NCBI RefSeq assembly: GCF_018863395.1
Contig: NZ_JAHKRR010000007.1
Location: 62,001-126,000, forward strand
Source: Sinomicrobium weinanense
Lineage (GTDB): Bacteria > Bacteroidota > Bacteroidia > Flavobacteriales > Flavobacteriaceae
DNA length: 64,000 bases
Reading direction: 5' to 3'
The notes beneath the pieces were generated by a model, which made no database searches, had not been told where the DNA came from, and worked only from the letters and a program-made list of their open reading frames with translations. Both the position numbers and the translations under genes were made by a program. This document shows positions 30,298 through 33,128 of this stretch, in pieces (the first letter of the stretch is position 1; the number at the start of each line of letters is the position of its first letter).

Positions 30298-31389
30298 TTA
30301 CAGTTGATTTTCGACAATTTTAGAGAACGAGGTCATCTTACAATTGTAATTATCCACAAAGAAATCATCGAGTTCATCGGCTTTTTGAAGCAACCCTACA
30401 ATATTCTTTTTAATATCATCTGCCTTTGACGAGAACGCATCGGTCACGGCAACCCTGTAAGAAACATAAATGGTATCTTTAAAAATACCCAGTTTATAAG
30501 GGTTTACATTATCTTTCAACAGGTATTCGAGCAGGGGTTCCAGATTGCCTTTGGGCAATTCGTTTAAGGGAGATGTGACATACAGGTAATTATTCTTAAA
30601 AAGGAATATCCGTATCAGGGAGCTACCGTGGTGAAACTCCCACAGGTTGGCCCCATTCCTTGCCAGGACCGGATTAGTACCTGCTTCTGCCAGTGCTTCT
30701 TCTACAAATACGGCTATTTTACTCAACTGTTGGGTCTCGAAGGCAAAGACCCTGGTGTCTACATTGCTGCCGCAGCTATTGCAGTATTCCACCTTTTCGG
30801 AGATCAGGGCACCACAGGAATCGCATTTCAGCGAATATGAGGTATAGTCGGTGATGGACGACCATGTATCCAGTTCTTCCATCACGGTTTTCAACGGGAT
30901 CCCGAAACCTACATTGTCGGCATTGTTAAATTTTGAGGTGGTTACCGCAACCAGTTCATCGCTGTGGTTCAGCATGGGGCCTCCGCTGTTCCCGGGGTTT
31001 ACCGCGGCATCCGTTTGCAGATAATGCCTGCCGTCCATTAACTGGTCGGGAGCAGAGATAATGCCCTGGGTCACCGTATAAGGCATTCCGAAAGGAAAGC
31101 CGTGCACAAAGATCTGGTCCCTGCCATACGGGACAATTTCTTCATTGATCCTTACCCCGGCTGCATTAAGGCTGTCCCAGCATTTGAGAAAAGCCAGGTC
31201 GGTCACGGGGTTCACCATGACCACATTGGCCAGATAGCGTTCTTTTCTCGTGTTTTCGACCGAAACCTCCCTGTTCCCGTCAACTACGTGATAGTTGGTG
31301 ATGATAACATCGTGTTCTTTAACATAAAACCCGGAACCACTTCCCGCGGCCGTGTTGATCTTGAATATTGATTCTGAAACATTTCCCAT
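30298..31389 (-). CDS. cytosolic HtrA-like serine protease with zinc ribbon and YbjN-like domain
   Basis: A 363-residue protein without signal peptide. Residues about 10-175 are a trypsin-fold protease with the full triad: TNYHVVDG (His), NPVTDLAFLK (Asp) and VNPGNSGGPML (Ser). There is no PDZ domain. Instead a zinc ribbon (CDSCGALISEKVEYCNSCG, four cysteines, about 184-202) is followed by a domain of about 140 residues. Its pattern (IYVSYRVAV..FSSKADDIKKNIVGLLQKADELDDFF) resembles the YbjN/type III chaperone fold. The gene begins 27 bases after the unknown protein 31417-32586, which seems to carry the same fold. Regulated proteolysis in the cytosol is inferred; no target is evident. Confidence 0.8.
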   Translation of the reverse strand: MGNVSESIFKINTAAGSGSGFYVKEHDVIITNYHVVDGNREVSVENTRKERYLANVVMVNPVTDLAFLKCWDSLNAAGVRINEEIVPYGRDQIFVHGFPFGMPYTVTQGIISAPDQLMDGRHYLQTDAAVNPGNSGGPMLNHSDELVAVTTSKFNNADNVGFGIPLKTVMEELDTWSSITDYTSYSLKCDSCGALISEKVEYCNSCGSNVDTRVFAFETQQLSKIAVFVEEALAEAGTNPVLARNGANLWEFHHGSSLIRIFLFKNNYLYVTSPLNELPKGNLEPLLEYLLKDNVNPYKLGIFKDTIYVSYRVAVTDAFSSKADDIKKNIVGLLQKADELDDFFVDNYNCKMTSFSKIVENQL

Positions 31390-31416
31390 GACGAAATGAT
31401 TATTTTTTTAATGATA

Positions 31417-32586
31417 CTAATTGAATAACCTGGAGAAAAAACCCTTGCTTTTTTTCGTGCCCGAAGCCGCTGCTGAAAGCCGGTCGGTCATGATATTGTC
31501 CAGGGCCCTGAAAAGTATTTTGCCCGATTCCTCCCACGATCTTTCCCCCGATCTTTCTAGGGCATTATAGATCTCGTTCGTGTATTTATCCTCTATCGAA
31601 TTATAATACATCAGGTAATAAAAGATGTATTGAACGGAAAGACTGCAGGCCATGTAATCTCTCTTGCCAAATTCCGTTTTTGCCCTTTCATAAATACTCT
31701 TCATAATCTCCTTGACAGCTGCGTCATTTGCATTTCGCTTGGGAGACACAAAATTTTCGATCTCGTAAAGGTCATTCCTAAACTTATCCGCATCCCAATC
31801 CTGCAATTTTCTCAGGAAGTCCCTGGCGTAATTGATCCTTTGCGGAATCTGGTCTTTGGTGGTCATCTGATAGCTGATCTCCTTTTCCAGTTCGGTCCTC
31901 AAATAGCCCTGGGGAAAGCAATAGTTATCTATTTTAAAAAGCGTAATGGCCACCATGTCCCAGGAAAAATATTCCCAGCGCTTATCTTCAAAATAGTCTA
32001 TATACCGGATGGCTTCGTCCACGATCTTCATTACATTGCCGTGGAGCTCCTCCTGTTTTTCCGGTGTGTATTCCCGGACAATGGGTTCGCTGATCCTTCC
32101 GGCCTTGAACTGCTCTATGAATTTATCGTCATAACTGTCTGCATAAATACAGATGTCGTATAAAATATCCCATACTTTATAAGGCTCACAAGTCTCTATC
32201 GGGCATTCGTATTCAAAAGACAGCCGCCCTTCCTTTAGCACTATATGGACCAGGTTGAGGGGCGAAAAATTGATCTGGGTGACCTGCCTGTACAGGGGGA
32301 TGGGATTTTCTGCCGGAACCGTCAGAAACGGAGCGCTCACCTTAAAGCTCTGGTCCGTGACCTTTATATTGACCATCACCGAACCATGCGGAATATTGAA
32401 TTCGGTCTTATCAGTATTGCCATATTTTTCAAACAGTACCGGATTGGCATACCGGATGACCCCTATGGCCGATTCTTTATATTTCTTTGCTTCATAAGAA
32501 TCCATTACATGGTCCCAGTAAGCAATATCGACCTGGCTCCTGTTGCTCTTCAGGACGGAAGGAAAATATTTTGGCGACTTATTCAT
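31417..32586 (-). CDS. uncharacterised protein paired with HtrA-like protease
   Basis: A cytosolic protein of 389 residues from the start MNKSPKYFPSVLK (eight codons after the first in-frame ATG). I do not recognise a named family. Residues about 50-190 have a beta-beta-helix pattern (FNIPHGSVMVNIKVTDQSFKV .. LSFEYECPIE .. VWDILYDICIYADSYDDKF) that resembles the YbjN/chaperone-like C-terminal domain of the neighbouring protease. Residues 190-380 are mostly helical, with no catalytic motif. The two genes are 27 bases apart and likely form an operon in which this protein is the partner or substrate adaptor. Confidence 0.6.
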   Translation of the reverse strand: MNKSPKYFPSVLKSNRSQVDIAYWDHVMDSYEAKKYKESAIGVIRYANPVLFEKYGNTDKTEFNIPHGSVMVNIKVTDQSFKVSAPFLTVPAENPIPLYRQVTQINFSPLNLVHIVLKEGRLSFEYECPIETCEPYKVWDILYDICIYADSYDDKFIEQFKAGRISEPIVREYTPEKQEELHGNVMKIVDEAIRYIDYFEDKRWEYFSWDMVAITLFKIDNYCFPQGYLRTELEKEISYQMTTKDQIPQRINYARDFLRKLQDWDADKFRNDLYEIENFVSPKRNANDAAVKEIMKSIYERAKTEFGKRDYMACSLSVQYIFYYLMYYNSIEDKYTNEIYNALERSGERSWEESGKILFRALDNIMTDRLSAAASGTKKSKGFFSRLFN

Positions 32587-32610: not shown

Positions 32611-33128
32611 TTCTATGATTCAACGGCCAGGCCTGTCGGGACCCACATTTATCCGGGGCGAAGCAGTTTATGGATACACTATGAACAAAGGGCAGAAATG
32701 CAATCCCTTCCCTTCGTATTGACAGGGGCCGTCTTTCCTTCTTTCACTTCTTCAGTACATCCTGTCCGCAAACAGGTAATGGCTAATTGATCTAACGGTT
32801 GGAGTATAAACAGATACCGGAGTTTTTGATCCGGGTAAAAAACTTTTTCAAAAATACGCATTTCATCCTCGTAAAAAAATCCCCGGGAACCGGTATTTTT
32901 TACCCGGGTATAAAATGCAGTCCGGAGGTTTTGCAGGACTTTAAGGGCCCTGATACATACGCCCTCCTGAGAGGTCCAACAAACTTTTTGATCATTTTGC
33001 ATTTCGTTGTTGTTTTCCAAAAAGAAAGGTGTTTTTACGCAGTACAATTAATACTTTATTGAAAATATAACATTTTTAAACCGAAAAACATATCAAATAT
33101 ATTTTTTTGACTTCCATTTGTTTCTATA
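32611..33128. other. intergenic region with an inverted repeat; doubtful small reading frame
   Basis: CCGGGTAAAAAA (32831-32842) and TTTTTTACCCGG (32896-32907) are perfect 12-base inverted arms 53 bases apart. A minus-strand frame of about 107 codons (start near 33002, stop at 32679) crosses them and has a cysteine-containing tail (CLRTGC..GRDCISALCS). It matches nothing I know and I do not call it. The end of this region is the A/T-rich promoter zone of SusC set 3. Confidence 0.35.

Follow-up and report, generated by a model that had tools for sequence, protein, structure and literature searches.

HtrA proteases usually find their substrates through PDZ domains. The window analyzed here, a stretch of 64,000 nucleotides from Sinomicrobium weinanense, carries the gene of an HtrA-type protease (TRY) in which a PDZ domain was not detected, together with the gene of a partner protein (TYC). 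The question raised by this locus is how such a protease is guided, and what the partner does for it. The initial annotation had described a two-gene layout in which a 389-residue neighbor lies 27 bases upstream of the protease gene, and our analysis confirmed the coordinates of both genes, on the minus strand. The features are collected in Table 1. In Galbibacter (L003), the gap between the two genes is likewise 27 bp.

Table 1. Features of the TYC-TRY gene pair in the window
Feature	Position	Strand	Description
Partner gene TYC	31417..32586	(-)	389 aa; N-terminal TY-Chap/YbjN-like domain, then helical C-terminal half; upstream of TRY
TY-Chap/YbjN-like domain of TYC	32083..32490	(-)	About residues 33-168; TY-Chap1, 2plg, hhalign
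Predicted helical half of TYC	31471..32082	(-)	About residues 169-372; secondary structure in low-confidence model
C-terminal aromatic/basic tail KGFFSRLFN of TYC	31420..31446	(-)	Motif count in partners
Intergenic gap	31390..31416	(-)	27 bp, between TYC and TRY
Protease gene TRY	30298..31389	(-)	363 aa; trypsin domain (HtrA-type), followed by zinc ribbon and TY-Chap domain
Trypsin-like protease domain of TRY	30865..31350	(-)	About residues 14-175; H34, D64, S135 in GNSGGP
Zinc ribbon of TRY	30772..30825	(-)	Cys189/192/203/206
C-terminal TY-Chap/YbjN-like domain of TRY	30322..30735	(-)	About residues 219-356; 2plg, hhalign, fold search

The protease TRY

In the Pfam scan, Trypsin_2 matched residues 18-149 of TRY (E = 1.9e-25), which places the domain almost at the N-terminus. 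The nearest PDB relatives of this domain were MucD (3.1e-21) and the Thermotoga-type HtrA 1l1j (6.8e-21); HhoA and DegS were also found. The catalytic triad had been described as intact, and H34, D64 and S135 are indeed invariant in 18/18 aligned homologues, as are the cysteines at positions 189, 192, 203 and 206. When the set was widened to 31 homologues, the four cysteines were present in all of them and the H-D-GNSGG pattern was complete in 29. The Zn_Ribbon_1 match in TRY (E = 0.0015) reached 18.7 bits, under the Pfam cut-off of 25.

The initial annotation had also stated that TRY lacks a signal peptide and a PDZ domain, and both statements held. No PDZ family was detected in TRY up to E = 1 in the Pfam scan, and no hydrophobic leader was detected by hydropathy in any of the 31 homologues. 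The 19-residue Kyte-Doolittle mean within the first 45 residues had a maximum of 1.03 or less in all 31, a set in which three homologues have over-long predicted starts. TRY seems to be an HtrA-type protease that stays inside the cell.

The cut-off of the HtrA/Do model TIGR02037 is 416.2 bits; TRY reached 123.9 bits, and the match covers the protease part. The same genome encodes a separate full-length HtrA (396.8 bits, also under this cut-off, model positions 3-427 of 434), and four further matches to the Do-family model are limited to later model positions. Because PDZ and export, two defining features, both fail, we did not assign TRY to the HtrA/Do family, although it may act in a similar way. 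Beyond the trypsin domain, the zinc ribbon and a C-terminal domain (the TY domain) were the only parts found, and no fusion to a defence enzyme was detected. The PADLOC matches of TRY to RT-Protease_XI are confined to the trypsin domain.

The partner TYC and the common domain

TY-Chap1 (PF22551) matched the window TYC with 19.8 bits, under the Pfam cut-off of 27. Among 20 TYC homologues, 13 were matched at E≤0.1, the best at 1.2e-6. For the helical half, the 20 homologues gave weak and scattered Pfam matches, and no family was convincing. No MBL or nuclease family was detected in the window TYC at E≤1 in the Pfam scan, and the 20 members contained neither at E≤0.1 except for one weak Cas9-WED match (0.019). 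In the Trypco/VMAP conflict systems, MoxR-vWA-VMAP genes occur with a Trypco partner; no Trypco-named model matched the window protein or its 20 homologues.

The pattern [FLW]xx[LI]F occurs within 14 residues of either end in 16/31 partners (11 at the C-terminal end and 5 at the N-terminal end), and in 3.2% of shuffled sequences. By the count used, it was not found in the terminal 14 residues of the other 15. By eye, the motif is present in three more partners (G468, G712 and G834), just inside an over-long predicted TYC start. From its sequence, the aromatic tail of TYC is a possible membrane- or protein-binding motif.

The neighbor had been suggested to have the same fold as the C-terminal part of the protease. 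When the full profiles were aligned with hhalign, TRY 244-356 matched TYC 57-168 with a probability of 97.2 and an E-value of 4e-11; domain against domain, these values were 98.1 and 9.7e-14. The controls failed, with E = 0.22 for the C-terminal half of TYC and 0.053 for the reversed domain, and 50 column shuffles gave a minimum E of 0.0083 and a median of 0.27. In a PDB profile search at E≤0.001, 2plg (Tll0839) was the sole match of each profile separately (1.1e-5 for the TRY C-terminal profile and 2e-5 for the TYC profile). A GS motif and an AD-x-x-D motif are found in both matches. An excerpt of PMC10948618 lists Tll0839 under the YbjN superfamily.

Structure prediction, performed in two runs with two sequences each, gave weak models (mean pLDDT 38 and 52), and the trypsin half was unusable. 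In a fold search, the TRY model had five matches at E≤0.001, all of them 2plg (7.6e-5) or type III secretion system (T3SS) chaperones; further down the list, poor matches to Arp2/3 were mixed in. The TYC model gave nothing at E≤0.001; SycH (6.8e-3) and 2plg (9.2e-3) were on top. By profile, the TY domains of TRY and TYC belong to the YbjN/CesT superfamily. The zinc ribbon and chaperone-like fold that had been assigned to TRY are borne out by the conserved cysteines and the 2plg match, and the hhalign and profile results show related rather than unrelated folds in the two proteins.

Linkage across genomes

The genome searches covered the same phylum, collections of plasmids, phages and viral contigs, and genome contigs in a single scan that detects close relatives only. 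In the family, TYC was found in 15/299 genomes, counting that of the window, which is a patchy distribution. At the level of the class, 8/295 genomes were matched; one of these is again the genome of the window, and one (G514, E = 4.5e-4) was too weak and was left out of the partner count. TYC was not found in two other sampled genomes of the window's genus, and a relative with 76% identity is present in Galbibacter sp. EGI 63066. In 22/22 loci (the window, Galbibacter and 20 others), TRY is the next gene downstream of TYC on the same strand.

Since searching by the partner is biased, a second search was performed on 345 phylum genomes with the TRY C-terminal profile. Matches at E≤0.001 were obtained in 34 genomes, of which the 14 with a full-length TRY (E≤1.2e-36) were counted, and 20 with short zinc-ribbon or YbjN-type matches were dropped. 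TYC is present in 14/14 of the TRY genomes; it is adjacent in 12, and on another contig in two (G438 and G731). In the combined set, TYC occurs in 31/31 TRY-bearing genomes, 22 of which had been found through TYC, and is adjacent in 29. Counted as adjacent were G846, in which TYC and TRY are separated by 326 bp that contain a small frame, and G822, with a TYC frame without its start. Two less clean loci were kept in the counts: L077 (a 341-aa partner frame with a profile match only from position 94) and L080 (genes 326 bp apart, with an intervening frame of 62 aa).

The linkage spans nine families of the sample, with TYC identity to that of the window down to 15-17%. The co-occurrence on which the initial annotation had made its proposal depend was thereby found by the neighborhood survey. 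TYC-TRY is a genuine two-gene unit in some Bacteroidota, kept over long evolutionary distances.

We also considered mobile cargo and rejected it. No TYC match was found in plasmids or phages, and 85 pattern matches in viral contigs yielded none that was confirmed. The TRY C-terminal part had one plasmid match (Bernardetia) and none in phages.

Pairwise identities of TYC and TRY over 30 genomes correlated with rho = 0.87, whereas rho against RpoB was 0.29 for TYC and 0.41 for TRY. Thus, the divergences of the two proteins track each other better than they track RpoB, and the pair has been inherited together. For example, G001 and G215 share 95.8% identity in RpoB, 27.5% in TYC and 46.9% in TRY; TYC diverges faster than TRY. 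In trees compared by eye, both TYC and TRY place G026, G215 and G184 with G119, G224, G186 and G252, and RpoB places the same three genomes with G001, G011, G050, G189 and G135. These patterns suggest that the pair was probably transferred, or else that an old duplication was sorted by loss. Part of the linked inheritance follows from mere adjacency.

Decayed and unlinked proteases

The H-D-GNSGG pattern is incomplete in 2/31 TRY proteins, and these are exactly the two unlinked ones. In G731, Gly stands in place of the catalytic Ser. In G438, the Ser is kept and the GNSGG surroundings are lost (MFSGS); this gene is at least about 20 kb away from both ends of its contig. In both proteins, the zinc cysteines are kept and the TY part still matches, and both genomes have kept TYC. 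Since the two belong to one family (f63) and are grouped in the protease tree, for which long branches call for caution, the decay may be one event.

On a 602-kb Bernardetia replicon, the triad and GNSGG of TRY are intact and no TYC lies next to it; a search of that record did not find TYC. By its sequence, this may be a solo active protease. Including Bernardetia, decay is seen in 2/3 non-adjacent and 0/29 adjacent TRY proteins. Loss of linkage and loss of catalysis thus do not always go together, because the Bernardetia protease is intact.

Because both proteins persist in the two genomes with a decayed site, a non-catalytic use of the pair is probable. This is most simply read as a function of the pair other than cleavage, with TYC being more than a substrate. 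These genomes also bear on the possibility that TYC is an inhibitor or folding partner, which would keep TRY silent or folded until a signal arrives. The constant linkage with the partner gene first and the common TY domain are in line with this, and an HtrA-type protease without a leader would plausibly have to be kept in check. However, a pure inhibitor does not explain why TYC is kept where catalysis is apparently lost, and the intact Bernardetia protease has no adjacent partner at all. We regard this explanation as rather unlikely. The Bernardetia case also counts against the reading we prefer: since its protease has no TYC beside it, the probability of an adaptor-protease complex is slightly lowered.

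Gene surroundings and the defence question

In the window, a divergent TonB-dependent receptor gene precedes the pair, and AraC-type (HTH_18) and OsmC genes come after it. At six flavobacterial loci, the pair is part of an extended gene cluster. This cluster also encodes a TPR histidine kinase and a response regulator of the LytTR type, both identified with Pfam on the L030 members. By clustering, LemA and DUF1266 are present in 5/6 and DUF3137 in 3/6 of these loci, and we read the small proteins of the cluster as lipoprotein-like. At locus L032, a Band_7 neighbor ends in a SHOCT-like segment (22.7 bits, cut-off 27), and TRY carries a similar SHOCT-like tail. This Band_7 protein had joined the protease cluster by its SHOCT tail only and was dropped from it. 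Envelope-type neighbors are hints in some loci only; the other loci are varied.

For 19 loci, 65 near neighbors were compared with PADLOC and Pfam. Two ORFs per side were taken and those below 90 aa were dropped; 10 of the 29 linked loci, including the island loci L030, L031, L033, L035, L036 and L037, were left out. The DNA polymerase III beta subunit was found in 3/65 neighbors and IF-2 in 2/65; the remaining families were mostly single among the 25 of 99 families listed. PspA was not among the families listed, here or in the cluster and L032 analyses. Each PADLOC family matched 1/65 neighbors at most. Of the 25 PADLOC models matched, 19 stem from one RecQ helicase (L034), and the AbiU match stems from an AIPR protein at L078, a genuine candidate for abortive infection of the AIPR/AbiU type. 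The other PADLOC models matched include RTasPolA, mad3, PtuA and GajA, and DNA polymerase A was among the Pfam matches.

The initial annotation had raised a possible defence role. With no recurrent defence family among the 65 neighbors and no phage match for TYC or the TRY C-terminal part, this claim gained no support, and a defence island was rejected as the main reading. The pair could still act as an anti-phage or conflict module in which TYC is a sensor or a latent effector activated by TRY cleavage, as in Hachiman and AVAST. The gene order, with the partner upstream and a trypsin-like protease downstream, resembles those pairs as they appear in an excerpt of PMC12799240, and trypsins with co-occurring partner genes are found in predicted conflict systems according to a portion of PMC7159879. 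The patchy distribution with probable transfer, the faster divergence of TYC and the AIPR/AbiU-type neighbor also fit. However, at the thresholds given above TYC contains neither a nuclease domain nor any other effector domain that is convincing, and TRY is not fused to a defence enzyme. Furthermore, because TYC persists beside decayed active sites, activation of a proenzyme by TRY is made less likely. The distribution and probable transfer of the pair are compatible with a conflict role but do not argue for it; such a module seems improbable.

Proposed mechanism

Our tentative reading, which we hold at somewhat below an even chance, is that TYC and TRY are the subunits of one intracellular adaptor-protease complex. 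Its place of action would be intracellular and might be the inner membrane. The two TY domains would pair with each other, as in SycN-YscB, a heterodimeric chaperone according to the title of PDB entry 1xkp. TYC may capture extended or misfolded segments and hand them to TRY, and in the members having an aromatic tail, this tail may hold TYC near the membrane. The targets would be cytosolic or membrane-near proteins under stress. The complex would be an ATP-independent counterpart of a PDZ-guided HtrA, serving intracellular quality control or a stress response, and it probably also has a non-catalytic use.

It is doubtful, though conceivable, that the wider evolutionary account holds as well: a secretion-chaperone fold would have been turned into a docking and substrate-delivery module, a heterotypic chaperone dimer with a partly membrane-tethered adaptor would replace PDZ, and the protease of one lineage would have decayed to a peptide-binding pseudoenzyme. 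That the proteins form no complex, and that two YbjN-domain proteins born of a local domain duplication belong to one operon and one stress response but never touch, is improbable too, since homologous domains in neighboring genes can arise by duplication alone but the linkage holds across the nine families despite the low TYC identity, and both genes are present even in the two genomes where they are unlinked.

The TYC-TRY unit matters in three respects. The replacement of PDZ by a T3SS chaperone-like domain that is repeated on the partner suggests another ATP-free way of guiding an intracellular protease. The natural decay of the active site lets catalytic and non-catalytic roles be separated. 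Finally, the poorly understood YbjN-like domain gains a concrete partner through TYC-TRY.

Comparison with known systems

A description of the TYC-TRY pair in print was not found in the literature searched, outside of which most subscription journals lie. Like HtrA, Do and DegP, TRY has a trypsin-like catalytic domain with the H-D-S triad and GNSGGP. Unlike them, it carries a zinc ribbon and a TY domain in place of the PDZ domain and hydrophobic leader.

The domain in both proteins is that of the YbjN/CesT-Tir/TY-Chap superfamily (PF22551, 2plg and the T3SS class-I chaperones). Here it is fused to a zinc ribbon and a protease in TRY, and to a helical half in TYC, with the window TYC under the Pfam cut-off. 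TY-Chap1, the same named domain family, is found in ADP-ribose-centred conflict systems in an excerpt of PMC9503650, the main text of which has no occurrence of "Trypsin".

The Hachiman and AVAST pairs likewise consist of two genes with a trypsin-like protease downstream. In the same excerpt of PMC12799240, however, the partner is an MBL nuclease and the protease is fused to a defence enzyme, whereas TYC is chaperone-like and TRY is unfused. Because TYC shows no nuclease, TYC-TRY is not a nuclease-protease defence pair of the Hachiman, AVAST, Lamassu or DRT kind.

An excerpt of PMC11237479 proposes sub-membrane stress complexes in which CesT/Tir-like chaperones, Band-7 and SHOCT-like domains act. 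Locus L032 also combines a chaperone fold with Band-7 and SHOCT, as in the CesT/Tir-PspA-Band-7 envelope-stress operons of that source and in BacA (part of PMC10948618). In those operons PspA is present, whereas here the protease is the constant partner.

Proteases Lacking an Adjacent Partner and a Stand-Alone YbjN-like Protein

The active sites of the proteases at L085 (genome G731) and L084 (genome G438) were degenerate. The partner was retained in both genomes, but on a different contig from the protease. For the protease of the Bernardetia replicon (L088), the partner was neither adjacent nor found elsewhere on the same record. In addition, the stand-alone YbjN-like protein of genome G454 matched the profiles of both the partner (TYC) and the C-terminal part of the protease (TRY), the two E-values being 2.6e-13 and 3.3e-5. 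Searches of this genome gave neither a partner match nor a full-length protease match.

Genes Surrounding the Pair

In the window, the open frame that precedes the partner gene clustered with nothing from the other loci, and is possibly not a real gene. The cluster c25 genes were located on opposite sides of the pair in two lineages. IF-2 was matched by two neighbors of the pair, which are presumed to be these c25 genes.

In L032, similar SHOCT-like C-terminal tails were observed on the Band_7 (SPFH) protein and on the adjoining protease. The L039 protease likewise possesses a SHOCT-like tail. A TPR histidine kinase and a LytTR regulator were present in the larger flavobacterial cluster, which also contains small lipoprotein-like families. 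Furthermore, LemA, DUF1266 and DUF3137 were present in some of these loci.

Features related to the pair (L, compared loci; G, genomes of the Bacteroidota sample)
Feature	Location	Strand	Remark
Protease, Bernardetia replicon	L088:4446-5525		Same type; active site intact
Stand-alone YbjN-like protein	L087:5081-5527		148 aa; G454
Open frame upstream of partner	window 32679-33002	(-)	107 aa
Cluster c25, related long genes	L026:4940-7699; L028:2728-5529		Close to pair
AIPR/AbiU-type abortive-infection candidate	L078:9694-11709		Close to pair; one genome
Band_7 (SPFH) protein	L032:9301-10284
Adjoining protease	L032:6760-8016
L039 protease	L039:11309-12549
Larger flavobacterial cluster	L030, L031, L033, L035, L036, L037		Encloses pair
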